DNA of 64,000 nucleotides from positions 1 through 64,000 of IMG/VR virus record IMGVR_UViG_3300024263_000001; one strand, written 5' to 3'. Position numbers and translations under genes: made by a program. Each line of letters begins with the position of its first letter. Positions within the stretch are counted from its first letter, which is position 1. This stretch comes from a virus. Below, in pieces: positions 5,159-64,000 of the stretch. The notes beneath the pieces are model-generated. The model searched no databases. It saw nothing but the letters and a program-made list of their open reading frames with translations, and had not been told where the DNA came from.

Positions 5159-7707
5159 CAGAACGAATCGCTCGTATTGTTTTTGAACTTGTCGGCGCAG
5201 AGGAAGTTGAGGCGCGGATAACAAAGGTTGACGCTGCCTGGACTAAGATGGCCACGAGAATGCAATCTAATCTTAAGTTGATGAATGAGTTATCTGCATC
5301 GTTAAGGACTATTGGGAAAACTATTTCTGGAGAAATTCTTCAACAGCTTCCCCAGACAACGAAATTCCTTGAGCAATTTGCCATCGCCGGTGAAAAAGCT
5401 GATATTGCGGGGCAGGAACTCAGTTTGTCCATGTACGTTCAGAGTGAGGAAGGACGAAAACTTGCCACATCTCTTGGCCTGGTTATTCCTAAATTGGAGA
5501 AAACCAAGACCGCGGGAGAAGAAGTAAAAGATGCTTTTTGGAAGTTGAATTCCGTTGCGCGCGCACTCCTTCGTGTCTTTGTGGCTTTTAAGATTCTGAT
5601 CGGCGTTATAGGTATCTTCAGAGACATGGCTGTTGCTACAGTTGAATTACAAAGAGAAATGTGGAGCCTTAGAGTTATTATTTCAGGTGCGGGCCAGGAG
5701 ATCGAAGGAGGTTTGGGTTCTTGGGATAGCTGGCTTGAAAGAATTCAGAGAATGCGAAGAGAACTCCCACTTATCAAGATGACAGACTTAGTGCGGGGGA
5801 TGAAGACCCTGATAGTTACGTTAGATGATTTGGGCCTCGCTGCCGGAGAGATGGAATATATCATCCAGTTGGCAGGGGAAATGGCTATCATTATGGGATT
5901 GGATTTCCCAGCTTATGCTCAACGGGTTTCAACTGCCCTTCAGGGTCAAGTCCGTAATTGGGCGACGCTTGGTGTAAATGTAAGGGACTCAAGTGCGGCG
6001 TTAAGAGAATATAGCCAAGAATTAGGCTACAACTGGGATGAATTAAATAAACAGCAAAAAGTATTGCTTCGCACCTTGTTCCTTACCAAAGAATTCATCA
6101 GGATAACTGAGGAAACAGGAGATGTATTAGACGAAGAATGGGCAATCTCGGAAGCACTGCGGGCGAAGAGAGCGGACCTCATAGCCCAGCAACCTAAGTT
6201 AATCCAATTCCAGAATATGTGGAATCAACTTTTGATTCTTGGTACTGAGGTGGCGGCCATCGCCGCAGATGCTATTACTCGTTTCTTTGCTACTATAGTT
6301 AGTGGCATAGGCGCAGCCCTAGATACAGTCTTGCTATTAACGACGGCCCTCATGACAGGCGAACTGGGATGGGAAAGATTGCAATGGATACTTGATCAGT
6401 ATGGTAAGACACAGGCTAAAATCTATGAGGACATAATCTCAGGATCGACAGTTTTGGAATGGTTGGGGAAGAGGCTTGGTGAAACAGGTGAGGAAGCGGA
6501 GGAAGCTGGCACTTCGTTTTCTGAACTTGAAGAAAGAATGAAATCATTGATTGATGCGGCAGCCGATACAGAGGATGCTTTCGATGATTTGGGAGATGTG
6601 CTCAGTAGGGCTCTTAGCCAAGCTCAAAGCGCGCTTCGCAGTTGGCGGCAAGCATTAGAACAAGCCCAAATCCAACTTTCTCGCCGATTGGCGGATATAG
6701 CACGGAACCTTGAACGGCGGTTGGCAGATTTAAGAGCAAGATACGAGGCTCGAAGGAGTCAATTACTTGAGAGATTTGAAGAGCGCAGGCGAAAAGTTAG
6801 AGAAGACGGGGCCGAAAGGGAAGAAGAATTACGAGAGGATCATAACAAAAACCTCCAGAGAATGGAAGAAGACCATCAGAGAGAGATGCGTCAACTTCGG
6901 GATGAATATCTATTGGATCTGGAGGAAGCGGCCAGGAAGCGTGATGCTATCTCAATGCGGCGGATTCAACAGAGATATGCCCTTGAAAAGAAACAAAGAG
7001 AAGAAGGATATGATGTCAATCGTCGCAGGGCAATAGAGGATTTTAAGGAGCAACTACAAGAACTCAGGGAGGCAATCCAAGAGCAACTGGATGAGTTGAC
7101 GGATTCACTTGAACGACAGTTAGAAGAATTGAGGGAGAATTATGTGCGTCAACAGGAGGAAGCCCGCCGTAATGCTGAATGTCAACGGCAAGATGCTATC
7201 AGAAATTATCAAGAGCGCGAGGCTGACCTTTGGGAGAGTCTTCAGAATAGATTAGAGGCCATTTTAATTGGCTTAATGGAAGAGGAAGAGGAATGGGAAG
7301 GTACTTACGCTGAACTGCGAAGATTTCTCGATGAATGGTATGAAGGTGATCTTGGAGCCTTACGAGAATGGTTGAATAGAAGGTTAGCTTTATTACAACA
7401 ACACTCAGGTAGTCCTTATGGCCCACCCCCTCCTCTCCGAGTCCATCCTTTGCTCACGGGTTTTGGTCTTCCAGAATCTTGGGGGCTTGCGGCAGGGGGA
7501 ATAGGAATTGCCAGAAGACCTACTTCACTTGTGGTTGGAGAAGGTGGTCCAGAAATGTTTGCCGCCTGGCCACTCGGTCAGAGAATGCCGAGAACAGGTG
7601 TAGATATTAGACTTACTATAGACGGTGAACAGAGAGGGGCGTGGAGCGGGGACTTTGAAAATAGTGTTCTCAGGGTTATGCGGTCTGTGCTTGAGGAGGT
7701 TCTATAA
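5137..7707 (+). CDS. Tape measure protein
   Basis: 856 residues. A hydrophobic segment near residues 145-170 (LLRVFVAFKILIGVIGIF) is followed by helical regions and a long Arg/Glu/Gln coiled coil at about 490-710. The C-terminal part reads AAGGIGIARRPTSLVVGEGG then PEMF, an ending seen in many tape measure proteins. It spans the tube lumen, sets tail length and helps DNA entry. At about 0.15 nm per residue the tail would be roughly 130 nm (inference). The start overlaps the upstream gene by 22 bases. Confidence 0.9.
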   Translation: MAERQTITERIARIVFELVGAEEVEARITKVDAAWTKMATRMQSNLKLMNELSASLRTIGKTISGEILQQLPQTTKFLEQFAIAGEKADIAGQELSLSMYVQSEEGRKLATSLGLVIPKLEKTKTAGEEVKDAFWKLNSVARALLRVFVAFKILIGVIGIFRDMAVATVELQREMWSLRVIISGAGQEIEGGLGSWDSWLERIQRMRRELPLIKMTDLVRGMKTLIVTLDDLGLAAGEMEYIIQLAGEMAIIMGLDFPAYAQRVSTALQGQVRNWATLGVNVRDSSAALREYSQELGYNWDELNKQQKVLLRTLFLTKEFIRITEETGDVLDEEWAISEALRAKRADLIAQQPKLIQFQNMWNQLLILGTEVAAIAADAITRFFATIVSGIGAALDTVLLLTTALMTGELGWERLQWILDQYGKTQAKIYEDIISGSTVLEWLGKRLGETGEEAEEAGTSFSELEERMKSLIDAAADTEDAFDDLGDVLSRALSQAQSALRSWRQALEQAQIQLSRRLADIARNLERRLADLRARYEARRSQLLERFEERRRKVREDGAEREEELREDHNKNLQRMEEDHQREMRQLRDEYLLDLEEAARKRDAISMRRIQQRYALEKKQREEGYDVNRRRAIEDFKEQLQELREAIQEQLDELTDSLERQLEELRENYVRQQEEARRNAECQRQDAIRNYQEREADLWESLQNRLEAILIGLMEEEEEWEGTYAELRRFLDEWYEGDLGALREWLNRRLALLQQHSGSPYGPPPPLRVHPLLTGFGLPESWGLAAGGIGIARRPTSLVVGEGGPEMFAAWPLGQRMPRTGVDIRLTIDGEQRGAWSGDFENSVLRVMRSVLEEVL

Positions 7708-7721
7708 GGAGGAGATAAACA

Positions 7722-8390
7722 ATGAGCTTCAAAGGTAAGAAACATACATTGGAGACCCGTCGAAAAATATCTGAGAGTATGAGAGGAAAGCGTTGTGGTA
7801 AAGAGAATCCTATGTGGGGAAAGGATTTCTCACGAGAACATCGGCGAAAGATAAGCGAAGCGCTTACAGGTAGGAAGCGTTCACCAGAGCATTGCCGTAA
7901 TCTAAGTGAATCTCTTCAGGGCAGGAAGCACACACCAGAAACCAGGCGGAAGATGAGCGAGGCTCATCGAGGACAAACACTCTCAACGGAAACTCGTCAA
8001 AAAATAAGTAAGGCCATGAAAGGCAGGAAACTTTCGCTAGAACATCGCCAGAAGATAAGTGCAACTCTGCGGAATGGAAAAGCTCCAAACTTGGGGAAGC
8101 GGGGGAAGGATGCTCCTTCCTGGAAAGGTGGACGCATACGGACTGGCCAGGGATATATTCTTGTCTATAACTGTGATCACCCCCATGCTAGTAAGCGAAG
8201 GTATGTTCCTGAACATCGCCTTGTGATGGAAAAATCTCTTGGTAGGTATTTAGAACCTTATGAGATTGTCCACCATATCAATGGTATTAAGGATGATAAT
8301 CGTTCAGAAAATTTAGAATTGGTGGTACAAAGAAATCACAGGGGCGAATTACGATGCCCACATTGTAGGCGGATATTTAATGTTCAATAA
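7722..8390 (+). CDS. HNH homing endonuclease with NUMOD3 repeats (copy 1)
   Basis: 222 residues. Residues 1-105 hold about six NUMOD3 DNA-binding modules (pattern K-H-S/T-x-E-T-R-R-K-I/M-S-E-A-x-x-G). An HNH_3-type nuclease domain follows with [27 protein letters not shown] and NRSENLEL. The C-terminus adds CPHC. It is free-standing between the tape measure and a small tail gene; both neighbours look intact, so no intron is implied. It is one of five related copies in the window. Confidence 0.9.
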   Translation: MSFKGKKHTLETRRKISESMRGKRCGKENPMWGKDFSREHRRKISEALTGRKRSPEHCRNLSESLQGRKHTPETRRKMSEAHRGQTLSTETRQKISKAMKGRKLSLEHRQKISATLRNGKAPNLGKRGKDAPSWKGGRIRTGQGYILVYNCDHPHASKRRYVPEHRLVMEKSLGRYLEPYEIVHHINGIKDDNRSENLELVVQRNHRGELRCPHCRRIFNVQ

Positions 8391-8401
8391 GGAGATACTA
8401 T

Positions 8402-8770
8402 ATGCCCAGGTATCCTGACCCAATTGACGGTGTTTTTAACTATATTTGGATGGATGGTGCTCCCCTGTCCAAATATCCGATTAGGACAACGTGGAGACGG
8501 CAGCAGATTGGGCGAGTGGGGAGCAGAGAACTCCGCTTCTCGGCTTATATGTCTGTCGTTCTGGAAATCGGGATATGTGATGAAACTGAGCATAATCAAC
8601 TCCACGATTTATGGACAGATGGAGGGTTGCATACAGTAGTTATGGCTGCCCCAGATGATGGGACTCATACAACCTACACGGGAGTAGCAATTGATGAAGT
8701 TTCGGCGAATAGGGTCGACTGGTACTATGAGAACACTAAGATGATTTTGTCGGGGATATTGAGACCGTGA
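8402..8770 (+). CDS. Small distal tail protein candidate
   Basis: 122 residues, beta-rich, between the tape measure and the giant tail-tip gene and flanked on both sides by HNH genes. It contains [17 protein letters not shown] and [17 protein letters not shown]. The place matches a distal-tail or hub adaptor protein, but no family was recognised. The following HNH gene starts in its stop (GTGA). Confidence 0.4.
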
Positions 8771-9300
8771 AACTAGGTAGCAAACATTCCGAAGAAACTA
8801 AGCGGAGAATAAGTGAGAGTAAGAAGGGCAAGAAATTGCCGCCGTTTTCTCCAGAGCATTTACGGAAATTGAGTGAGGCCCAAAGAGGCAACCAATATAG
8901 ACGGGGTAAAAAACACTCATTGGAGACTCGGCGGAAAATGTCTGAGCGCATGCGAGGTGAGAATAATCCTATGTGGGGAAAACATCATTCCCCAGAACAT
9001 CGGCGAAAAATAGGTGAGTCTCAGAAAGGCGAGAAGCATCCCAACTGGAAGGGTGGGCGGACACGGAATGGTATAGATTATGTTTTAATTTTGAGACCAG
9101 GTCACCCCAGGGCTTCCCCTAATGGCTATATTTATGAACATCGTTTAGTAATGTCTGAGTATCTTGGTCGCTACCTTGAATCTTGGGAAATCGTCCATCA
9201 TAGGAACGGTATCAGGGATGATAATCGTAAGGAAAATCTAACGCTTTTTCCTTCTCAAGCGGAACATTTGGCCTTTCATCGGGAGAATGGGGATATATAA
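8767..9300 (+). CDS. HNH homing endonuclease with NUMOD3 repeats (copy 2)
   Basis: 177 residues, GTG start overlapping the preceding TGA. Residues 1-85 hold three to four NUMOD3 modules ([39 protein letters not shown]). The HNH part shows [36 protein letters not shown]. It is a mobile homing-type nuclease related to the copies at 7722, 18177, 50131 and 53184. Confidence 0.9.
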
Positions 9301-9302
9301 AT

Positions 9303-12300
9303 ATGCCAGAAATGAGTGTTGGTGATCTTGCCAAGTTAAGACAAATGCGACAATGGTCTCATATTTTTATGGTCGTGCATAAACCGAATACAATGTTCAC
9401 GGGGACGATAGACTCACCTGACATTGCCAAGGGGGAACGTTTTATTCCATTTGATAATGGTGGTCATTGCCTGGGGTATAATTCAACAATTTTTGTATTG
9501 GATACTTTCACTGATGGCAATGGTACTTCGCTTGATGCTCATACACCAGATATTGATGTAGTGGGGGGTGGGTGGGCGGAGTTACAGGGGAATTCAGATA
9601 TTCAAGGTAATGAGGCAAATATTCAAGGGGTTCCTGCTCTAAATGCGATAGATTCAGGCATTTCTGATGGAGTTGTAGCAATAGATGTGACAACTGCCCC
9701 ACCAGCCCCCGCCGCCCAGATGGGTCTTGCTTTTCGCTGTCGAGATGCGAATAATTTTTGGTTCTGGGTTGTTGATTTAAATACTGGTGGGGCTGAATTG
9801 GCATATTATCAGGGTGGTGTGTATCATTCTGTTTGGACTTCACTTATCGGGATAGAGGCTAATCATACTTATAACCTAGCGGTCAAACTCAGGGAGCATT
9901 CCATTGATTGCTATATTGATGGTGTGTGGTATACATCGACAGCCAATAGTTTCAACAAAACCGAGACTGAACATGGAATGTATTGTGGACAGATTGGTAT
10001 CCGCTTCGACAATTTCGAGGTGTTTGAGATTCACTTTGATGACCGTCATACTACCCTTTGGGTTGGGTCTTACGCTGGTGGAAGGGATATTGGAATTATT
10101 AGAGTTAGAAACATTATTGTTTCTTGGCCTTATTCTGGCTTCATTGAGGTTGCAGAGAACGCTGATATTCTCTGGGCGGATAATCTTTATTTAACTGTTA
10201 AAGATGAACATAGAATCTGGCCCAGGTTTCCGAGAGTTGAAGTTGAAGAGGGTGAAGTTACTTGGTGGAAAGATTATAATATTGCTCATACCAATCAGAC
10301 TTACCAAGAACCTCCAGTCCCTATTATGGGACCTCCTGCTTGCGCTTTTCTGGACGAGGCTACAGATCAGGTTACTCTTCGCTTTTGGGGCGAGGATAGC
10401 TACTCCCCCAGAGAAACTCCTCTTGCTACTGGTACGTGGACTTTCCCTCATGGTACTCCCGCAACCGCTAATACCTTGGGGACAGAGGTGGCCCCTCATC
10501 AAGTGACGTGGGATACTCCTGGGGTTTATATGGTTCGGCTTGCTATTACTGATGCTAATGAGGAGGTTTCTTATGGTTATCGCCCCGTATTCATTTTAGA
10601 CCATGCAGAATGTTCTAGTGGCCTTTATCCAGCAGATGACCTTTTCCCAGCAGAAGATCTCTATCCGATGGGTAATCTTTATTGTTCAACTATGGATGCC
10701 CAGGATTTTGAAATTCGTGGGATACGAGGTAATTTCTCTACTGGTGGGTGGACAGCAAGTATCAGGGTTTTTAGACAGGCAGATGTAGAAGATTTCCCTG
10801 AAGGGGCCATGTTAATTATCTTTGCGGAGGATTGGTATGAAGGAGAACAAGTAAGCATAGGAGGGTATGGCCATCGGGAGAATATTGTTTTCGTGGGTTG
10901 GATAATAGCCGATTCTGTTCGCAAGGAGCCCATGACTGGGGAAATCACATTCTTGGCCCATACTGTGGACGGAGAACTGCGAAATTGTCCAGCGTTTTCT
11001 GTGGGGGTGGAAAGGGTAACAGATACACCAGATAATTGGTTTGAAATCCAAGACATGACTCTAGACTTATCAGGATTTTATATTGGATATTGGCATTCCA
11101 CGCTTTATGAAGTGAGTGATGTTCTTGAAAGTGAGGATACCAGAGCAGTTAAATATATGGACATTCCCCAGTCCAACCTTTATAACCAATTAGATAAAGG
11201 CAATTTCGCCGAAACGATTTTTGCTCGCGCTCTCTCTGATCGCCAATCGAGATTCAAGTATGACGTTAATCCTCAATACCTGGTAGCATCCAAACGAGAT
11301 GCACTAGATACAATTATGACTATCCAGGATGAGGACTGGCTAGGAAGGGTAGAAATACAAGAAATTCAGGAGAAACGAATCTCTTGGGTGGATGTATCGG
11401 GGGTAAGAGTTGCTCCTTGGGAGAGGAGTTATGGTGTTTATTCTATAGCTCCAGGGGATGTACCCTCTCCTGATGGTGCTTTCAAACAACTTACCAGGCT
11501 AGTGGCGGATGACCAAGCCGATATGAATAGATTGGCGGGGTTTACCTATGCTAATCTGAATAAGATGCACCCCCAACGAACAAGCGGGCTTTTCCGTGTT
11601 AGAGTGCCTCTCATGGGGAATTATCGAGTCTTTGATTTACATCCCCAGGAATGGGTCTTATTTCCTTCTCTTGATACTATGCGAGAAGGGTTAGGACCTG
11701 GACACGAGACGGGAACTCCCTGGCCTACTGGAACGCGATTTATTCCTAGAAATATAGACATTGGATTCCAGAATGAACTTGGCGCTTTCATGGTTACTGC
11801 GGATTTGGAGCCTGAAACAACAGGCACTTTGGGGGAATCTGTAACTTGGCCTGGGCAACCAGGGACGGGGGGGCAAGCAGCCATTGTGTTACAAATGACA
11901 CAAAACCTGAATGGTACTGGGGACGATATTGATGTAGTTTTCATTAGTGAGGATCTCTTTGCTGATAGTCCTACGTGGGCACAGAGACATAATGGGTTGC
12001 CCTGGTTTCCAGTCGCGGGGGCTAATTTTGATGTTAATACTTTGAGGATTGACCCCTTTAATTCAGGTAAGGATGATGGAGACATTGTAGCACTTCTTGG
12101 TCTTCGCACTTCTGCTAATACTTATGCAGGCATCTATCGCAATGCTGATTTAGGAGATGGTAGTGTCTCTTGGGTGGCAGTATTGACGGGTGCTAATGTG
12201 CTAGCTCAATGTTATGCTGGTGCGGGAACTATCAATGACTGGCATGTTATTGATATAAGATTTGACCCCACAACTGAAGGATGGGCCTATGCCGTGTTAT

Positions 12301-14472: not shown

Positions 14473-16164
14473 ATGCTCTTAAAATTCAGTAGACCCAAAA
14501 AGATATACCTTATACCAGCCGATATGCCTTTGTCGTGGTTCGCCAAGTTGCATGGGATGTTGCGGGGCAAATATTACATCAAATGTGATGGGGTTCGTGA
14601 CGATGTGTTCTTTAACGAGGCTTATGAGTTTCTTCCCAAGAATCCAGGTGGCGAACTTAACTTGCAGGAAGGGGAATTCCAATTCTCAATCGTTGGTAGC
14701 GCAACTGCTCCCTCGTATTCAACGACTAGAGGCAGTGGCCCCAACGCAACCGTGCGGAGGCCCAATAACAGCACTTATAATGGGCCGCTTATCAAAACCG
14801 CCGATGGTGCAACTGGCGTCATCTTCGAGAAATTCTTGCTAGACGGGAATTGCTTGAATCAAGACAGGGTGGCTTTTCCTAATCAGGGCAACCTTCGGTT
14901 TGTAAATGCCACCGATAGTAAGGCTGTAGGGGTTTTCTCTATCGCGGGGACGAACTATGGAATATATCTTAGCGGTTCTGTGGGTTGCGAGGTTTTACAT
15001 TGTGTTGGCCATGACCACGCTGGAGATTTTGGGGCGAGTGGTGCCCCAGGTATGTTCATAGGCGTCCATCGTGGGTCAGATAATGTCATCGCCAATAATA
15101 TCTGTCGAGACAACGAGGATGATGGCATTGCCATATCGGAATCGAAGCGATTTACCGTTGCCAACAATGTCTGTTTCGGCTCGACAGTTGCCAGTGGGAT
15201 CGAGGTTTATTGCGGCGACCTGAATTACGAGGCTGCCGACGGTGTAATTGAGGGGAACGATTGCTACGACAATGCAAGGGCTGGGATAGAACTTCTTCAC
15301 GGCGGGACAGCCCTATATGATAGTATTCATGGGCTTACAATATCGGGCAATACTCTTGTAAATAATGGCACGCACGGCCTCTGGGCCAGGGGGGTAAAAC
15401 TTACCATTGCCAAGAATGTAGTAGCGGCTAACGTAGACAATGGCATCTGCCTTTTCAACTGCGAAGACACGCCGGTTGAGGGGAATGTCGTGTACGACAA
15501 TAACACGGGCAACACGGCGGGGTATTCGGGCATTTTTCAATATACCGTTGGCATAACTATATACCGCGTAAGCATTCAAGGAAACACGATCACCAACGCG
15601 GCGCCTGGCCGTCAGAAATACGGCATAAATATCGCCGATGCTGGTTGTGCGGACACCGTGATCGGCCCCAATACTTTTAATGGGAACGAAACCGCGCCTA
15701 TCAATGATGCTGGCACGCGGACGAAATTTGTTCCGACGGGCCAATGTGCTCGAGTTTACCACGATGCTGACCAATTGATTGCCAATGGTGCCTGGACGGT
15801 TCTGAATTTTAATTCAGAACGGTTTGATAACGACGACATTCATGATACTGTCGTTAATAATAATAGGTTGACTTGCAAAACTGCTGGGATATATGAGATT
15901 ACTGCCCAAGTTCAGTTTGCAACCAATGGGGCCGGGGAGCGGTTCTATATGATTCGACTTAATGGCGCAATTGTAATAGCAGATACCAAGCATAAAGCGA
16001 TATCAACTGTTGCTACTCAGACTGGGATGACCCTTACGACACTGTATCAATTATCAGTCAATGATTGGGTAGAGGTATTAGTCTATCAAAACAGTGGTGG
16101 CGCACTTAATGTTGTAACGCTGGCTAACTATAGTCCAGAATTCATGATGGTAAGGGCAGCATGA
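14473..16164 (+). CDS. Tailspike with right-handed beta helix and C1q-like C-terminus
   Basis: 563 residues. After a 30-residue lead the text CDGVRDDVFFNEAYEFLP opens a pectate-lyase-like parallel beta helix; residues 120-410 show repeated N-rich turns (NVIANNICRDNEDDGIAIS, VIEGNDCYDNARAGIELL). The last 130 residues (NFNSERFDNDDIHD, then TAGIYEITAQVQF) look like a C1q/TNF-type trimerisation domain. Such spikes bind or cut host surface polysaccharide. The helix-coding DNA looks more GC rich than the tail genes around it, hinting at exchange of the receptor-binding part. Confidence 0.75.
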   Translation: MLLKFSRPKKIYLIPADMPLSWFAKLHGMLRGKYYIKCDGVRDDVFFNEAYEFLPKNPGGELNLQEGEFQFSIVGSATAPSYSTTRGSGPNATVRRPNNSTYNGPLIKTADGATGVIFEKFLLDGNCLNQDRVAFPNQGNLRFVNATDSKAVGVFSIAGTNYGIYLSGSVGCEVLHCVGHDHAGDFGASGAPGMFIGVHRGSDNVIANNICRDNEDDGIAISESKRFTVANNVCFGSTVASGIEVYCGDLNYEAADGVIEGNDCYDNARAGIELLHGGTALYDSIHGLTISGNTLVNNGTHGLWARGVKLTIAKNVVAANVDNGICLFNCEDTPVEGNVVYDNNTGNTAGYSGIFQYTVGITIYRVSIQGNTITNAAPGRQKYGINIADAGCADTVIGPNTFNGNETAPINDAGTRTKFVPTGQCARVYHDADQLIANGAWTVLNFNSERFDNDDIHDTVVNNNRLTCKTAGIYEITAQVQFATNGAGERFYMIRLNGAIVIADTKHKAISTVATQTGMTLTTLYQLSVNDWVEVLVYQNSGGALNVVTLANYSPEFMMVRAA

Positions 16165-50130: not shown

Positions 50131-50802
50131 GTGGGTTTTACGGGCAGGAAACATTCAGCAGAAGCCAAACGGAAGATAAGTGAAGCTCAACGGGGTGAAA
50201 AGAATCACATGTGGGGAAAGCGTCATTCACCAGAAACTAAGCGAAAAATGAGTGAAGCTCAGAAAGGGAAAACATTGTCCTTAGATCATCGACGGAAATT
50301 AAGTGAGGTTAATCAGGGTAAGAGACACTCGCTAGAGGCTCTCCAGAAGATGCGTGAGGTCAAGGGGGGCAAAAATCATCCAATGTGGGGGAAGAGGCGA
50401 CCACTAGAGGTGAGAAGGAAAATAGGTGAAGCTAATCGGGGCGAGAAATCTGGGCGGTGGACGGGAGGACGTAAACGGGATGGTGGTTATATCCGTATCA
50501 AAAAACGTGATCATCCCAATGCTGATTGTAATGGTTATGTTGCAGAACATCGCTTAGTTATGGAGGAACATCTAGGTCGTTACTTGGAATCTTGGGAGAT
50601 TATTCATCATATAAATGGCATTAAGGATGATAATCGAGTTGAGAATTTAGAATTATTACCTTCCCCAGCCGATCATCTTGTACGTTTGAGAATACAGGAT
50701 TTGGAGAGAAGGGTATTGGAGTGGGAGCGAGCTTTTTATCGAAGTGTTGGTTATTGGCTTGGTGAAAGGCGGGAGAGAATAGAGTTAGAGAGGAGAGCAT
50801 GA
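50131..50802 (+). CDS. HNH homing endonuclease with NUMOD3 repeats (copy 4)
   Basis: 223 residues, GTG start. About five NUMOD3 modules ([52 protein letters not shown]) are followed by [41 protein letters not shown] helical tail extends beyond. It lies between terminase and portal and overlaps the portal start by 4 bases. Confidence 0.9.
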
Positions 50803-53183: not shown

Positions 53184-53756
53184 ATGAAACAATACCGAGA
53201 TTCTAATTGGTTAAGGCAAAAGTATTGGGATGAAGGGTTGACACTTGCCGAAATAGGGAATTTGATGGGTGTTTGTCGTAATACTATATTCAAATGGATG
53301 AAAAGATTTAATATTCCGAGACGAGGTTCGGCTAGTCGTTTTCAAGGAGGGGAGCGATCTCTAGAGACACGGAGGAAAATGAGTGAGGCTTTTAAGGGGA
53401 AGAATCATCGCCTTTGGAAGGGAGGTCGTTTTAAAGACACAGATGGCTATATTCTTATTCATAATCCGAAACATCCTTGTGCGCGCGGTGATGGTTATAT
53501 ATTAGAACATCGTTTGGTTATGATGGAAGAATTGGGTCGTTATTTGGAGTCTTATGAAATTGTGCATCATAGAAATGGGATTAAAGATGATAATCGGGTT
53601 GAGAATTTGGAACTTTTCCCTCATGCAAATCAACATAATATATTAACTGTAATAACAAATGAGCATATTAAGCGATTGGAAAGTGAATTGAATGTTCAAA
53701 GCCAAAAAACAAAAAACTGGATGGAAGCATATTTTCGTGTGTTAGTTGGTGTATAA
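53184..53756 (+). CDS. HNH homing endonuclease with N-terminal HTH and one NUMOD3 (copy 5)
   Basis: 190 residues. HTH at 5-45 (NWLRQKYWDEGLTLAEIGNL, MGVCRNTIFKWM), one NUMOD3 ([15 protein letters not shown]), then [39 protein letters not shown]. The gene looks AT richer than the portal gene before it. It combines the modules of copy 3 and of the NUMOD3 copies. Confidence 0.9.
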   Translation: MKQYRDSNWLRQKYWDEGLTLAEIGNLMGVCRNTIFKWMKRFNIPRRGSASRFQGGERSLETRRKMSEAFKGKNHRLWKGGRFKDTDGYILIHNPKHPCARGDGYILEHRLVMMEELGRYLESYEIVHHRNGIKDDNRVENLELFPHANQHNILTVITNEHIKRLESELNVQSQKTKNWMEAYFRVLVGV

Positions 53757-56314: not shown

Positions 56315-57610
56315 ATGAGTCAACAGATTCCTGCTGAATTGGAGTCTCTTGCGTCTCTATATGATGAAGTGCTGCTTAACGTTCAGCAACTTGCTGGCAC
56401 GAAAGAAGGCGGCAAGGTTTTGGTGGCGAAGCGTGACGCTCTCGAAACCAAGACTGTTGATCCCGTTATGACTGTAGCACAACCATTCACTCCGTCACAG
56501 TTCAACTTCCAGTACCCGCAGCCATTAGATCCATTGGAGATTATGGCGGTCTGTGAGGAGGTTGGAGTTCTTAACGCTATTCCAGAGAAACAGACGCAGT
56601 TGAAGGTCGAACTCTGGATGGAGTTAAGTAACCTCTTTATGGATGTCGTTGCGGGAGGCCAGTATATTGCCTTTGCAGATGGGGAATGCCCAGAGGAGTT
56701 TGAGGAGACGGGTACTTATCGTCACGTCACTCTCAAGAACTTGGGCGTGAAGAAGTCCCTAACTCTCTCCGATATCAAGCATTCGGCGGCTATCTCTGGG
56801 GCGGGTGGCATCGCAGCTTTGCTCGGTGCTTTCCCTGCCAGTGAGCGGGAGCCAGGAGGTTTTGACCTCGCCACGTTCCAGAGAGAACTGGTAGCCGATA
56901 TCCGTGAGAAGGAGATACGGAAGGGCGCGTCTCTCACCCTTGATGCTTGGGACTGGATTCTCGTCAATGGTGCTCTTGCCACCGATCCGCTGGAATTTGA
57001 CGGTATTACTACTATCGTCACAGCGGCTAATGGTGCCCACTGTAACACCGCTTGTCCCACTGGGACTTTCTCGGTGTCGGACTTTGATCGTTTCATTAGT
57101 GAAGGGTGTGCGAAACCCACTCATATCTTTGGTCATACGCAAGCTCTACAAGAACTCTCTGTTGCTTACTTCCAGTTAGGGTTTGCTGGTAGCCAGATTA
57201 TTCAGATTCCTGGCCCTGAGCCCAGAGTCACCCCTGGCTATGGCTTTACTGATAGAGTGAACACCCAGGTCGGTCCGTTGCAACTGGTGGGGGACTGGAA
57301 CTTTGACCGTACTGCTCAGGCTGGTGTTTGTGGTGGCGTATTTACCTCGACTCTTTATCCTTTAAGGATGTTGCATAATGGGGAACCTCTGGTCTACAGA
57401 ATTACCCAGATGCCGTTTGCTTATAAGGAATTGACTCCTGGTTGTACTGCCATCAGCTTCCAAATCTGGGTGAAGACTGCTCTGGTGATTAAGGCACTGT
57501 GCGCTCAGGCTTGTTACCAGGCGTCGTTCAGTGGGAATATTGTTTCCACTTGCACTCGGATAGGATCACCTGGGCCAGGTCGAACTGGCGGAGCTCCTGT
57601 CTTAGCATAG
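56315..57610 (+). CDS. Major capsid protein (HK97-type)
   Basis: 431 residues, directly after the protease/scaffold gene. A helical N-terminal segment is followed by an HK97-like core: an SREP-like ADIREKEIRKGASLTLDAWD spine-helix region, a TACPTGTFSVSDFDRFISEG P-domain stretch and a beta-rich C-terminus. The C-terminus is Gly/Pro rich and contains several Cys. No homology search was possible, so the call rests on size, position and pattern. Confidence 0.8.
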   Translation: MSQQIPAELESLASLYDEVLLNVQQLAGTKEGGKVLVAKRDALETKTVDPVMTVAQPFTPSQFNFQYPQPLDPLEIMAVCEEVGVLNAIPEKQTQLKVELWMELSNLFMDVVAGGQYIAFADGECPEEFEETGTYRHVTLKNLGVKKSLTLSDIKHSAAISGAGGIAALLGAFPASEREPGGFDLATFQRELVADIREKEIRKGASLTLDAWDWILVNGALATDPLEFDGITTIVTAANGAHCNTACPTGTFSVSDFDRFISEGCAKPTHIFGHTQALQELSVAYFQLGFAGSQIIQIPGPEPRVTPGYGFTDRVNTQVGPLQLVGDWNFDRTAQAGVCGGVFTSTLYPLRMLHNGEPLVYRITQMPFAYKELTPGCTAISFQIWVKTALVIKALCAQACYQASFSGNIVSTCTRIGSPGPGRTGGAPVLA

Positions 57611-57763: not shown

Positions 57764-58078
57764 ATGGCTACTAATACACCAGCGAAAATACCTAACGTCA
57801 TTCGATTGGCTGTAGCAGTTGCAAGCGAAACACCTGTTACTTTTCACGGTGCTGTTAGCATCATTGCGTTACGGGTTCAATGTGTAGATGCTATTGCTCT
57901 TCGGGTTTCGTTTGATGAAGGCGGCACTTTCAGCACTGATAATTTCTGGACCATAAAATCGGGAGCCGTGTGGAGACAGGATGATATTAACTGGACAGTT
58001 GATAATCCCGCAATGTGGGTTCGGATTCCCGTTTCGCCCAACGGCGATTCGATTGTAGAGATCATATACTGGGGATAA
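57764..58078 (+). CDS. Small beta-rich virion protein candidate
   Basis: 104 residues, beta-rich (IIALRVQCVDAIALRVSFDE), behind the structured element and SD gaggagaaatt. Position after the capsid gene suggests a decoration or minor head protein. No family recognised. Confidence 0.45.
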   Translation: MATNTPAKIPNVIRLAVAVASETPVTFHGAVSIIALRVQCVDAIALRVSFDEGGTFSTDNFWTIKSGAVWRQDDINWTVDNPAMWVRIPVSPNGDSIVEIIYWG

Positions 58079-58098: not shown

Positions 58099-58503
58099 AT
58101 GGCTAAATGGTGTGATGAAGGCGAAACCTCGGTGGGGGATGTTTACCTAAAAGCCTCAGCAGGGGTAGCCAAGTGGTTGGGCCTGTTTGAGAATGCAGTC
58201 GAACCCGCGGAGGACGCCGTGATGACTGACATAACGGAGCAAGCAGTAGGGCTTGGTTATGGCAGAATCCAGTTACTCGATGCAGAGTGGACAGAGCAGG
58301 CCACGAAGGGCGAATTTAAGAACTTGGAAAAGACCTTTACCGCCAACGGGGGCGCTTGGGGCGACCAGTATGGTTATTTTATTACAACCGCTGAGACTGG
58401 CACGGCTGGGAAGTTGCTCGCCGTGGAACTATTCAGCGATGGCCCTTATGCGGTCAATGATGGCTGGAGCGTGAAGATAACGCCTACTATCACTGTTGCG
58501 TAA
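58099..58503 (+). CDS. Small virion protein candidate (decoration-like)
   Basis: 134 residues, beta-rich C-terminal half (LLAVELFSDGPYAVNDGWSV, ITPTITVA). Located between capsid and repeat protein. It could be a capsid decoration protein; no family signature seen. Confidence 0.45.
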   Translation: MAKWCDEGETSVGDVYLKASAGVAKWLGLFENAVEPAEDAVMTDITEQAVGLGYGRIQLLDAEWTEQATKGEFKNLEKTFTANGGAWGDQYGYFITTAETGTAGKLLAVELFSDGPYAVNDGWSVKITPTITVA

Positions 58504-58512
58504 TGAGGTGAT

Positions 58513-59910
58513 ATGAGCACGGCCCTCTATAATCCCAACAGCGATATTCAGACTGAGTGGGATACTACTGGCGTTGACCATTATACTGAAATAGATGAGG
58601 GCACTACACCTGTTCTTGCTGACCATGTGCAGACCAAGGGCGGGGGGGATATTGATGAGTGGGGATTCGCCACCCCTGGCGAGTCTGGTATCAATTTTAT
58701 TAGAGCTCACATATACGCTGAGACTGGTAGTAATGCTACCTTCCTTATCAGTCTCCAGCAAGGCGGGGTCGAGCGGGCGAGTTTCCAGGTTCCTGTTGGT
58801 CAAAGTCAACAGTGGTTCTCCTGTCAATGGGATAATCCATCAGGAGATCTGAGTGCCCTGACCATTGAGGTTACGCACACCAAATCTGGTGGCGGCGGCC
58901 CGACTTATAGTACGGTTTATACTGCTTATTTGGAAGTAGATTATACTGAAATTCAAGAGTTTCCTTATTCTGGTAATATTCCCCTGACTAGTACCCCAAG
59001 TTATTTGTCCTCTGTGATTATGACTTACGCTGGAATCGCTCCTCTGATGACTACACCGAGTTATGATTCTCTTCTTGATAGGACCTATGATGGAGCCCTT
59101 CCCGTGGGGTGTGTGCCAAGTTACCTTTCAGCCTTGGAGAAGGGGTATAGTGGGATTGTTTCATTGGCGGTATTGCCAAGCTACCTCTCCGCTCTCGAAA
59201 AAGGATATAACGGTGTAATTTCCCCAAATTTGTTACCGAGTTACTTGTCTATTCTTGATGGGGCATATGATGGGACGATTCCTGTGGCAATCTCTCCAGG
59301 TTATGATTCAAAGGTAGAGGTGATTTATGCTGGGGCAGTTGCAGTGGGAATATTGCCCAGTTATAGTTCCATTGTAGAGATGTTATATGGGGGTCAGGTT
59401 CCTGTTCTTGTGGTTCCGAGCGCGAGTTATTCGCTGGAATCTGTGCAGGAATTTGTTTATTCGGGACAGGTTGATATAGGATTATTGTCTAGTTACCTAT
59501 CGACATTGGAGAAAGGCTATCAGGGGCAGATTTCTCTGATTCTTTTATCGGGTTATGATTCTATTGTAGATAGGATTTATTTGGGGGAGATTCCTCTAGT
59601 TGTTGTACCGAGTCGTTTGTCCGCGCTGGAAATGGAGTATGATGGTTCTGCGGCGCTGGTAATTGTACCTGAGAGTATCTATTCTTTGGAGGAGAGTGGG
59701 ACTGAGTTTGTTTATTCTGGTAGTGTTTTTGTTTTTGTGTTGCCCAGATACGTTTTGGTCGCCGAGGGGGAAGTGAGAATGGATTCCCGTTATCCGCATT
59801 GTCTTCGTTGTGGTGGTCCTTTGGGGGTTCATGCTGGGATTAGGGGACCAAATGTGCAGTATCACAATTATGAGTGTCGTTTGGGTTTAGAACATCCCGA
59901 CTATGATTAG
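58513..59910 (+). CDS. Virion protein with thirteen 20-residue repeats and C-terminal zinc module
   Basis: 465 residues. Residues 1-150 look like a jelly-roll sandwich (FIRAHIYAETGSNATFLISL). Residues 152-420 are 13 tandem units of the form Y-x-G-x-[IV]-x-[LV]-x3-P-S-Y-x-S-x-[LV]-[ED]-x2, with two short inserts (units 8 and 12). The C-terminus is a zinc module (RYPHCLRCGGPLGVHAGI, then HNYEC), which recurs twice in the protein at 60471. An internal ATG at 59779 could also give the zinc module alone. It is probably a long fibre or surface protein of the head. Confidence 0.55.
   Translation: MSTALYNPNSDIQTEWDTTGVDHYTEIDEGTTPVLADHVQTKGGGDIDEWGFATPGESGINFIRAHIYAETGSNATFLISLQQGGVERASFQVPVGQSQQWFSCQWDNPSGDLSALTIEVTHTKSGGGGPTYSTVYTAYLEVDYTEIQEFPYSGNIPLTSTPSYLSSVIMTYAGIAPLMTTPSYDSLLDRTYDGALPVGCVPSYLSALEKGYSGIVSLAVLPSYLSALEKGYNGVISPNLLPSYLSILDGAYDGTIPVAISPGYDSKVEVIYAGAVAVGILPSYSSIVEMLYGGQVPVLVVPSASYSLESVQEFVYSGQVDIGLLSSYLSTLEKGYQGQISLILLSGYDSIVDRIYLGEIPLVVVPSRLSALEMEYDGSAALVIVPESIYSLEESGTEFVYSGSVFVFVLPRYVLVAEGEVRMDSRYPHCLRCGGPLGVHAGIRGPNVQYHNYECRLGLEHPDYD
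58966..59775 (+). repeat. Thirteen coding repeats of about 60 bp
   Basis: DNA encoding the 20-residue units of the 58513 protein. Units are conserved in protein but diverged in DNA, apart from pairs such as units 3 and 4 (both PSYLSALEKGY), so the array is old with possible recent local duplication. Confidence 0.75.
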
Positions 59911-59921
59911 GCGATGTGAGA

Positions 59922-60158
59922 ATGGCTGATGTACCAGTTAGAGACTATCATTTCAGGCCCCGACAAAGACCAGTAAAGAGTCCCAGAACTGGTCGTAGAT
60001 ATAAATGGGAACATAAGGGATCACCATTTGCTATATGTATGGTAGCAGAGGGGGATTTGCAGTTTATTGAAGCTGTTAAGAAGGGCTGTTGTGGAAGTCG
60101 CGGGCGTTACTACAAACGAGCGACACAGGAGGAATACAACGCATGGTTGGGGAAATGA
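59922..60158 (+). CDS. Small basic protein upstream of GroES
   Basis: 78 residues from the ATG at 59922 (GTG at 59916 also possible). Basic start (FRPRQRPVKSPRTGRRYKW), then a globular part with GCCGSRGRYY. Its stop overlaps the GroES start. Function unknown. Confidence 0.5.
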   Translation: MADVPVRDYHFRPRQRPVKSPRTGRRYKWEHKGSPFAICMVAEGDLQFIEAVKKGCCGSRGRYYKRATQEEYNAWLGK

Positions 60159-60478
60159 ATGTTGAGGATTTTATACCTATTGATGATAGGGTGCTTGTGA
60201 GACCACATGAGATTGAGGAAAAGACTGAGAGTGGGGTTTATCTTCCCCCCGCCGCTCTTGCTGAGAAAAGAGAGATAGTACAGTCGGGCGAGATAGTTGC
60301 TATTGGTCCTGGCCGTCTAAACGCGGAGGGGAAGCGTGAAGCTATGATGGATTTACGACCTGGGGACACGACGTTTTTCGCTCGCTTCCAGGGTTGGTTA
60401 TTTGTGGTTGATGATGTAGAATACCGAGTGTTTGGGCAGCACGATCTGTTTGGTTATAGGAAGAGAGAAGGTGAGTAG
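60155..60478 (+). CDS. groES: GroES-like co-chaperonin
   Basis: 107 residues from the ATG at 60155 (ATGA overlap). It follows the Cpn10 plan: IPIDDRVLVRPHEIEEKTES, then a mobile loop GVYLPPAAL, then GEIVAIGPGRLNAEG, LRPGDTTFFARFQGW and VEYRVFGQHDLFGY. Phage co-chaperonins (T4 gp31 type) replace host GroES so GroEL can fold the capsid protein. Its place near the capsid genes fits that role. Confidence 0.85.
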   Translation: MNVEDFIPIDDRVLVRPHEIEEKTESGVYLPPAALAEKREIVQSGEIVAIGPGRLNAEGKREAMMDLRPGDTTFFARFQGWLFVVDDVEYRVFGQHDLFGYRKREGE

Positions 60479-60938
60479 ATGTGCCCGCTGTGGGACTCCT
60501 CTAGGGGTTCGTGTGGGCATTATGGTGGGAGGCGAGTTATTTTGCAATTATGAGTGTGCCCAAGATTTAGAGGGGGAAAGGGAACGGGCTCCCCTCCCAG
60601 TAATGGAGAGGAAAATGAATCCAGATGATCGGTATCCTCGGTGTGTTCAGTGTGATAAACCTTTAGGAGTTCACGCAGGCATTAAAAGGGAAGGTGTAAG
60701 GGTATGTAATCGAGATTGTGAATATCTTTACTTCGGCCCCCCCGATCCTTATACGGAAACAATGATAATGGATTTTAGTTTTCGTACTGCGCTGGAGGAT
60801 TTGAAGAAACAAAACCCTGAAGTTGATGAGGCGGGTATTTTGGCCTTGTATTATCTAGGTTGGGTGAAAGTTCCTAGTCGGGGGGCGGGGGATTACGATA
60901 TTTACGAGAAAGTGAGAGGATGGTGTGAGGTAGAATAG
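60471..60938 (+). CDS. Protein with two zinc modules shared with the repeat protein
   Basis: 155 residues, GTG start overlapping the GroES stop. Module 1: CARCGTPLGVRVGI then FCNYEC. Module 2: RYPRCVQCDKPLGVHAGI then VCNRDC. The C-terminal 70 residues are helical and acidic (EVDEAGILALYYLGWVKVPS). The modules match the zinc tail of the 58513 protein, so the two may interact or share an ancestor. Function unknown. Confidence 0.55.
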   Translation: MSRCARCGTPLGVRVGIMVGGELFCNYECAQDLEGERERAPLPVMERKMNPDDRYPRCVQCDKPLGVHAGIKREGVRVCNRDCEYLYFGPPDPYTETMIMDFSFRTALEDLKKQNPEVDEAGILALYYLGWVKVPSRGAGDYDIYEKVRGWCEVE

Positions 60939-61186: not shown

Positions 61187-62170
61187 ATGGGAACTCGGTT
61201 CAGTGTGATTGTGCCCACTACTGGTGGGCGTATGAAAAATTTAGATCTGGTTCTTTGTTCTCTGGCCAACCAATATTTTCCTAAAGATGATTATGAAATA
61301 ATTGTGGTAAACGATGGTGGCGAGCCGGAGGTAAAGGATCTGGTTGCCTCCTATAAGGGGGAGTTTGGGAAAATTGTTTATATTGTATCTCCCAAATTTG
61401 AGTCCATTCCCCTTTCTCAGGTTGCTCCAACAGATGTAGAGGCTACTATAACTATTTGGGGGGAAGGGGGAGATCTTATCAAACTTGTTCCCAACGAACA
61501 ACCCCGCAACAAGGGGGCAAGGCAGGCGGAACATGGTTTTTATATTTTCGCTGATTCTGATGTGGTTCTTTCTCCTATGACTCTCGCGCTCTATAACCAG
61601 GATATTTCTAACAATCCTGATCGGATCATCTTAGGGATTTATCATTGGTTACATCCTATGGAGATAACTAAAAGAGATATAATTGAACGATTTGATGATA
61701 TAGTCCATCATCGTCTTATGAAGGTTCCTCTCAACCGCCCGCAAACTCATAATATTTGCCGTGATATGCGGTTGAAAAATTTTGAAGCAACGACCCCAGA
61801 TGAGGTTCACCGTGCCCCTAATCACATGAATGATGGTCTTGCTTGTTTTAGTGGGAATATATGTTGGCCCAAGAATCTGTTTTGGGATATAGGTGGTTAT
61901 AATCCTTATCTTCATGCAGGAGCCCACGAGGATGGGATGAGTGGGTTGACGGCTTACTTCGCAGGGTTTGGAATCTCCTACGACAAGCGGATCATTGGTG
62001 GGCATATATACCATGACAGAGACATTTCGTATGTTGAATCTTTCAAGTGGGCCGAGATAGAGATTATAAATGATAAGTTTAAGGATGAACCAGAATTCAA
62101 AGGTGTACTTGAGCAGACGGAGGAAGAGAAGAAACAATTAGGCGTGGGGGATTGGAAGAAAGAATGGTGA
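61187..62170 (+). CDS. GT2-family glycosyltransferase
   Basis: 327 residues, GT-A fold. FSVIVPTTGGRMKNLDLVL is the N-terminal nucleotide-binding strand, IIVVNDGG a donor contact, PRNKGARQA the ribose loop and IFADSDVV the D-x-D-like metal site; AHEDGMSG supplies the catalytic E-D region. It transfers a sugar from a nucleotide donor to an unknown acceptor. First gene after promoter P4; part of the sugar island that probably continues to the GT4 gene at base 1. Confidence 0.85.
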   Translation: MGTRFSVIVPTTGGRMKNLDLVLCSLANQYFPKDDYEIIVVNDGGEPEVKDLVASYKGEFGKIVYIVSPKFESIPLSQVAPTDVEATITIWGEGGDLIKLVPNEQPRNKGARQAEHGFYIFADSDVVLSPMTLALYNQDISNNPDRIILGIYHWLHPMEITKRDIIERFDDIVHHRLMKVPLNRPQTHNICRDMRLKNFEATTPDEVHRAPNHMNDGLACFSGNICWPKNLFWDIGGYNPYLHAGAHEDGMSGLTAYFAGFGISYDKRIIGGHIYHDRDISYVESFKWAEIEIINDKFKDEPEFKGVLEQTEEEKKQLGVGDWKKEW

Positions 62171-63466: not shown

Positions 63467-63593
63467 ATATCTGGTTGATAAGGTTGATCTCTCTTGGGTT
63501 TGGAAAACTGTTGCAGCAATGGCTATAGTTATGTCATCTACGTTTATGGGTGGATTTTTACTGGGTTGGTTTCTTTGCGGGCGGTGGGGATGA
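63459..63593 (+). CDS. 44-residue membrane protein
   Basis: ATG 63459 behind aaggggaaata. One membrane helix at about 17-41 (TVAAMAIVMSSTFMGGFLLG, then WFLCG). Paired with the coiled-coil gene before it, which recalls XhlA/holin-type pairs. The stop overlaps the next start. Confidence 0.5.
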   Translation: MGEYLVDKVDLSWVWKTVAAMAIVMSSTFMGGFLLGWFLCGRWG

Positions 63594-64000
63594 GTAAGGT
63601 AGCTGTAGTGACAATGGCAAGAACGGGTTCTACAAGATTACCTAACAAGGTTATCTTTGATCTTGGTGGCAAACCAGCGTTTATACAGGCTATCGAGAGA
63701 GTCACTAGTGTCGTAAAAGCGGATTATGTGGTTGTGGCTTGCTCGATTTATGCGCGGGATGATCCGATTGAACTCTTCGCGAAACAGTACGGGATAGATT
63801 GTTTTCGTGGCCCAGAGGAGGATACAGGTGGCCGATTGAGGATGTGTGGAGAATGGTTAGGTCTAAAAGATGATGATTGGCTTGTAAGCTCTAGTTCTGA
63901 CCAACCTTTGAGCATAACAAAGTGGTTGCCTTGGGGAATAGAGCAACTTCAAAAACGTGATTGTGCTTACTTAAGGTTTGTTGCGCCCCCCAATAATACC
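63590..64000 (+). CDS. SpsF-like cytidylyltransferase, N-terminal part (3' end outside window)
   Basis: 137 residues visible. It begins KVAVVTMARTGSTRLPNKVI, the nucleotide-binding signature (R-x-G-S-x-R-L-P-x-K) of CMP-sugar synthases, followed by GGKPAFIQAIERV, YVVVACS and FRGPEEDTGGRL, closest in style to SpsF. It would activate an acidic or unusual sugar with CTP for transfer by the neighbouring glycosyltransferases. The frame is open at the window end. Confidence 0.8.
   Translation, partial: MSKVAVVTMARTGSTRLPNKVIFDLGGKPAFIQAIERVTSVVKADYVVVACSIYARDDPIELFAKQYGIDCFRGPEEDTGGRLRMCGEWLGLKDDDWLVSSSSDQPLSITKWLPWGIEQLQKRDCAYLRFVAPPNNT

Follow-up and report, generated by a model that had tools for sequence, protein, structure and literature searches.

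What does a virus do with a protein that consists largely of tandem 20-residue units and is encoded directly behind a set of head genes? The gene that raises this question lies at 58513..59910 (+) of the window, the whole 64,000-base stretch analysed here, which comprises bases 1–64000 of a 74,352-base virus record. An earlier note had read its product as a head fibre or capsid decoration built from thirteen strict repeats and capped by a zinc module, and had given the coordinates, frame and length of the open reading frame correctly (465 aa plus stop). The protein has period 20 and is divided into 13 units by a unit matrix. A non-repeated N-terminal domain (residues ~1–150; 58513..58962, +), probably a beta-sandwich or adhesin-like fold in a slot that is swapped between viruses, is followed by thirteen ~20-residue units of the form YxGxIPLxLxPSYxSxLExx (58966..59772, +; first unit at residue 152) and by a 43-aa C-terminal Cys/His tail, CLRCGG...HNYEC, which possibly binds zinc (59779..59907, +). 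The Y-x-G motif recurs at residues 152, 172, 192, 212, 232, 252, 272, 292, 316, 336, 356, 376 and 401, a spacing of 20 throughout except behind units 8 and 12, where it is 24 and 25. These exceptions are the two 4–5 residue insertions already noted, of 4 aa in unit 8 (59386–59457, +) and 5 aa in unit 12 (59638–59712, +), both of which end EFVYSG.

Identity at a lag of 20 is 0.34 over residues 141–425, compared with a maximum of 0.169 at any lag in 2000 shuffles. Scored with a matrix that was built from the units of other viruses only and omits the positions by which units had been selected, units 1–12 reach 8.9 to 19.1 bits against a 99% value of 7.5 for shuffled units; unit 13 (residue 401) scores −2.7 and is degenerate. 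The proposed strict pattern Y-x-G ... P-S-Y-x-S likewise proved looser: only Y and G are invariant across the 13 units, position 11 is proline in 11/13, and P-S-Y-x-S is a tendency. Each unit holds one alternating hydrophobic strand. The long beta-solenoid envisaged at first did not emerge from structure prediction, the AlphaFold2 model of the protein (pLDDT 42.7, pTM 0.30; an alignment of only 10 sequences) showing just two short, low-confidence strands per unit and an N-terminal fold with pLDDT <50.

The Cys/His tail is present as described. It was not found in the other proteins carrying this repeat, which end in unrelated tails, and we set the zinc cap aside as lineage-specific. An in-frame ATG at 59779 opens the tail and sits behind a weak GAGGGGG, so the tail is possibly translated separately; it might anchor the protein, form a tip or exist as a peptide of its own. 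The module occurs twice more (60471–60572 and 60624–60725), in a downstream ORF at 60432..60938 (+), with E-values of 3.8e-9 and 1.5e-6 to the tail. A further YxG repeat protein, at 10414–11904 of record L069, ends CPNCGC, and cysteine-rich tails may therefore have arisen more than once.

The earlier note had not recognised the repeat as a named family, and searches bore this out. The repeat region of the window protein and of seven to eight relatives gave no significant Pfam, PHROG or NCBIfam match, and no Ig-like or cell-wall-binding repeat profile matched in the window protein or in the relatives' repeats. Among PDB sequences there was no credible match to a profile of the YxG repeat, to a profile of the Gly/Ala/Ser/Thr-rich repeat described below or to gp56 of phage BcepIL02; matches to CfaB pilin, nitrate reductase and PilE (E 0.25–0.5) were discarded as chance. 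LPXTG_double matches in relatives (E ~0.002), far below the cut-off, were rejected, and the HFTV1 turret paper yielded no link.

The whole protein found no match in viral contigs and phage records, and a single-unit alignment was too degenerate for locating relatives. We therefore searched IMG/VR at the DNA level for three consecutive 20-codon units (Y-x-G, 7 residues, P, 9 residues) and translated the hits. The same repeat is plain in about half of the 41 pattern-matched stretches, in proteins of 160–830 aa, and L016, L017, L024, L028, L035, L044, L049 and L059 are clear members.

The partner that matters most is encoded immediately ahead of the repeat gene. Its gene lies at 58099..58503 (+) and encodes a 134-aa protein that scores E=0.0012 and 19.6 bits with PF23140 ('Podophage GP4 fiber I protein gp80'), below the curated cut-off of 27; the same family is matched by 12/13 of its close family members, at best with E 6.8e-12. 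Its AlphaFold2 model (pLDDT 79.4) has as top Foldseek match 8jou_a (prob 1.00, TM 0.57, E=3.8e-3), a chain of the PDB entry titled 'Fiber I and fiber-tail-adaptor of phage GP4', and the podophage L072 encodes an intermediate homologue whose sequence matches 8jou_a (E=4.6e-7). On sequence and predicted fold, then, the 58099 product is a homologue, if a remotely similar one, of the Gp80 protein that forms the beads in GP4 'fiber I'. In L016, L017, L035 and L048 the gene preceding the repeat gene encodes a product 58–68% identical to it. Two tandem Gp80-like genes occur in L067 (8145–8543 and 9995–10405), L043, L116, L118 and L208, where there are perhaps two kinds of bead on one rope. A Gp80-like protein is also encoded by the archaeal tailed virus Methanosarcina virus MetMV (L071, 8842–9411), and a profile that includes it matches PDB 26la_U, 'Structural protein', with E 4.8e-7.

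The pairing of the two genes is not peculiar to the window. The bead played no part in the choice of the repeat pattern, which recovered 15 distinct virus groups; in 14/15 of these repeat records a Gp80-like gene lies upstream on the same contig and strand, adjacent or within ~5 kb. The fifteenth, L024, starts inside the rope gene, and L068, from the same metagenome and ending at the same residues (FDLVAETAAN), has a Gp80-like gene in front. With the same bead profile, 0/31 control records (13 capsid relatives and 18 chance pattern matches) gave a Gp80-like gene. L025, at first taken for a chance match, is a true repeat protein with a bead and is therefore counted among the positives; two of the controls, L021 and L039, carry a different period-20 repeat, YAGTASGHTDPHGAAAG..., with a divergent Gp80 (PF23140, phrog_240) directly upstream.

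Every ORF was then scanned for periodicity at 20 loci of the window's bead type and 80 loci of the L072 bead type, the latter having at least 580 relatives among IMG/VR stretches. Strongly periodic ORFs (z at least 6) make up 44/405 of those downstream of Gp80-like genes and 8/854 of those elsewhere on the same contigs, five of the eight being ropes just upstream of a bead. The periods of the 44 are 20 (33), 40 (7), 21 (2), 22 (1) and 17 (1), and thus 20, 21 or 40 in 42/44; in Lacusarx the bead's neighbour has a best period of 9. By eye, the period-20 sequences are unrelated: they include YxGxIPLxLxP, GASTAASVGSAAGTSTVSGV, INETxRLxEA (L198), KSTFDVSDIxSVLxEFxIQD (phage Slicko01) and GAGAADLVLNVSGNGTRRTF (BcepIL02), and several of these flavours share a glycine followed by an alternating hydrophobic strand. 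The L198 candidate, a 1639-aa rope at 6714–11633 beside a Gp80-like bead, has the repeat INETxRLxEAxGxxRxLxRx, which is charged and possibly helical and combines the 20-residue pitch with quite different chemistry.

The flavour of the rope follows the bead. The 20 loci of the window's bead type hold 12 YxG ropes and 0 Gly/Ala/Ser/Thr ropes, while the 80 loci of the L072 type hold 0 and 57, respectively; shuffled ORFs gave 0/854 YxG rope calls. Bead subfamily thus predicts rope flavour, in counts that are not independent events since the loci are interrelated and include near-duplicates (L148/L149 and L202/L204). At 8/20 loci of the window's type and 23/80 of the other, a rope of either scored flavour was missing, and the bead can therefore have other partners.

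GP4 is a Ralstonia podophage, and its fiber I (PDB 8JOU; PF23140), located where the tail joins the head, is reportedly built from an elongated rope protein that carries five gp80 dimers. The bead dimers are said to sit on one rope chain, which is attached to a 15-fold fibre-tail adaptor. We consider it likely that the 58513 product, in the same way, supplies both rope and tip of a virion fibre threaded with Gp80-like beads. It is probably a rope because a bead gene adjoins it, because the pairing recurs in many unrelated viruses, and because the 20-residue length is kept despite complete changes in sequence. Here we infer that bead and rope bind, where on the virion the fibre sits, which way it points and what its N-terminal domain does. 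Gp80-like beads, dimers in GP4, would grip the 20-residue units and so stiffen and space the rope; the unit would be the footprint of a bead, the interface would fix the repeat length, and rope sequence could drift or be swapped jointly with its bead. The N-terminal beta-rich domain would form the exposed tip, an exchangeable adhesin, lectin-like or depolymerase-like payload that contacts host surface or glycans. The window differs from GP4 in an unrelated rope sequence (YxGxIPLxLxP versus GxGxAxLxLxVxGxG), in its virus backbone, in the N-terminal adhesin-like domain and in the Cys/His tail.

The surroundings of the gene bear on where such a fibre would sit. Going downstream, the genes encode the large terminase subunit (48559; PHROG E 2.6e-68), the portal (50799; PHROG E 2.4e-24), a ChaB-containing protein in the usual place of the protease (54518), the probable capsid protein, a 104-aa protein, the 134-aa bead and the repeat protein. 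The probable major capsid protein (56315..57610, +) is assigned from a weak match to phrog_212 (E=0.02), from its HK97-type position after the portal and protease genes and from its relatives L002–L014. The 104-aa protein between capsid and bead (57764..58078, +) has no family match and is possibly a decoration or fibre-anchor protein. Two HNH_3 genes with NUMOD3 motifs (50131–50802 and 53184–53756) flank the portal gene within the head module and are free-standing homing endonucleases. A GroES-type co-chaperonin (60089–60478; PF00166, E 1.6e-17) is encoded two genes past the rope, in the late region. Behind the head genes lie a family 2 glycosyltransferase and a CTP_transf_3 cytidylyltransferase (61187–62170 and 63494–64000); sugar-modifying genes directly follow the capsid gene in many capsid relatives too, perhaps for host-surface or virion glycosylation. 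A 563-aa protein at 14473–16164 with a right-handed beta-helix/NosD match (E 7e-20) is a candidate tail spike or depolymerase.

The position in the head module is what had suggested a head fibre or decoration, and part of that reading stands, a fibre still being the best interpretation. In its fullest form it would have the repeat fold alone, as a trimeric spiral or beta-solenoid standing on the capsid, with the Gp80-like protein as its base or as an independent small fibre. The gene is indeed part of the head module in the window, L016, L017 and L063, and one alternating hydrophobic strand per unit suits a fibrous beta fold. Against this, the module lies between portal and protease in L035, outside the head module in L019, and at a distance from the head genes in L059, L065, L067 and L069. 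The tight one-to-one pairing and the co-segregation of flavours imply a partner, and GP4 fiber I belongs to the tail vertex, as the 8jou title indicates. Among known head fibres and decoration proteins, gp8.5 of phi29 and Hoc of T4 are likewise optional projections with genes in or close to the head region; the window protein differs from them in having that GP4-type bead as partner and a repeat that matches nothing in Pfam, PHROG or the PDB. A rope model with a pLDDT of 43 also speaks against a repeat that folds alone; so poor a model fits a chain that is ordered only inside beads, but also a shallow alignment. We judge a self-standing head fibre unlikely. Gene position is a weak guide to place in the virion, and homology of the bead speaks for the portal vertex. 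If GP4 is taken as the model, the beaded fibre is most likely attached at the portal vertex or neck, and is probably not a general capsid decoration.

Less probable again is that receptor binding falls to the repeats themselves, as a module for cell walls or glycans, and that the N-terminal domain anchors the protein in the virion. Many adhesins are repetitive, and the conserved Tyr and Pro could form sugar sites. However, no binding-repeat family was matched, and the repeat sequence is wholly different between bead subfamilies while the pitch stays at 20. It is moreover the N-terminal domain that varies and that has lyase- or lectin-like matches. Outside the repeats, a PF14099-like domain of polysaccharide-lyase fold is found in the rope proteins of L038 and L059 (E 2.8e-7), that of L035 has three choice-of-anchor R (choice_anch_R) domains (E 3.7e-19), and that of L019 has, by eye, an apparent tail-hub domain; the N-terminus of the window protein resembles that of L016 by eye (PNSDI...W..., IDE.TP). 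These differing non-repeat domains point to the repeat as a stalk joined to different payloads.

Evidence on virions comes from related modules. Burkholderia phage BcepIL02 is one of the Bcep22-like group, in which GP4 is placed by the title of its genome paper, as cited in PMC7940629, and we let BcepIL02 stand in for that group. Its gp55 is a Gp80 homologue, the next protein, gp56, has period 20 (z 7.8; 0/500 shuffles), and gp57 is a 92-aa protein, all three annotated as virion-associated; in this member of GP4's group, as in the window, the gene after the bead encodes a period-20 protein. Mass spectrometry of purified virions of the relative JC1 found the Gp80 homologue gp53 and the 92-aa gp55, and gp54, the homologue of BcepIL02 gp56, was not among the proteins found (PMC9144972). 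In Alishewanella phage LSH1, an additional module consists of three proteins detected in virions by mass spectrometry, gp34–gp35–gp36. The match to the GP4 fibril protein is gp35, modelled as a dimer, and the protein with an Ig fold is gp36. In gp34 an adhesin/depolymerase domain precedes a region that defied modelling, where the authors propose a repetitive motif (PMC13243795). This module resembles the window's in placing a GP4-fibril homologue beside an N-terminal adhesin/depolymerase domain with a long unexplained C-terminal part.

Slicko01, a relative of LSH1, has gp34-like domains (PMC13243795). Two genes away from its Gp80-like gene it encodes a 1843-aa protein that is periodic (20/40) in its second half, and it differs from the window in its repeat (KSTFDVSDI...) and in a reversed gene order. 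The window also seems to lack the Ig-fold third protein of the LSH1-type module: no such gene is evident beside its rope. The ORF at 57764–58078 has no family match; neighbours of ~95 aa occur in L016, L059, L024, Slicko01 and BcepIL02. That the window protein is instead no part of the virion, but an accessory of the late operon that is secreted or stays inside the cell, is very improbable: the rope cassette is absent from 13/13 of the nearest capsid relatives (L002–L014) and therefore dispensable, and the Cys/His tail recalls small non-structural proteins, but homologous modules are in, or annotated as part of, the virions of BcepIL02, JC1 and LSH1.

A bead-chain fibre is also known from Anabaena phage A-1(L), whose neck fibre gp80–gp81–gp82 sits on the portal vertex and is tipped by a carbohydrate-binding module (PMC10966104). 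There the beads are trimers of gp81, and there is no long repeat rope (PMC10966104). The stretch holding A-1(L) genes 80–82 (L209) gave no match to the Gp80-like profile at 1e-3, and we rejected these genes as relatives on sequence.

The beaded fibre invites a wider reading, which we put forward tentatively and would rate slightly below an even chance. The 20-residue unit would be a molecular ruler, each bead or bead dimer gripping a fixed number of units, with rope sequence and bead subfamily co-evolving as lock and key in a large, mobile class of appendages. Were this so, the number of units would set the number of beads and the length of the fibre, and the YxGxIPLxLxP protein of the window would represent one flavour, among at least five, of a single machine.

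The one known structure of a bead-and-rope fibre is that of GP4, and in other viruses the components mostly lack annotation. This kind of fibre is known but barely described, and the general bead–rope pattern appears to be undescribed in the libraries and papers searched. The pairing, the 20-residue pitch and the co-segregation together offer a testable answer to the question, raised by the LSH1 authors, of why a stretch that defies modelling always comes after an adhesin domain, and predict how fibre length is measured. With at least 580 IMG/VR stretches carrying one bead subfamily, ropes, beads and host-contacting tips could be annotated in hundreds of viral genomes.
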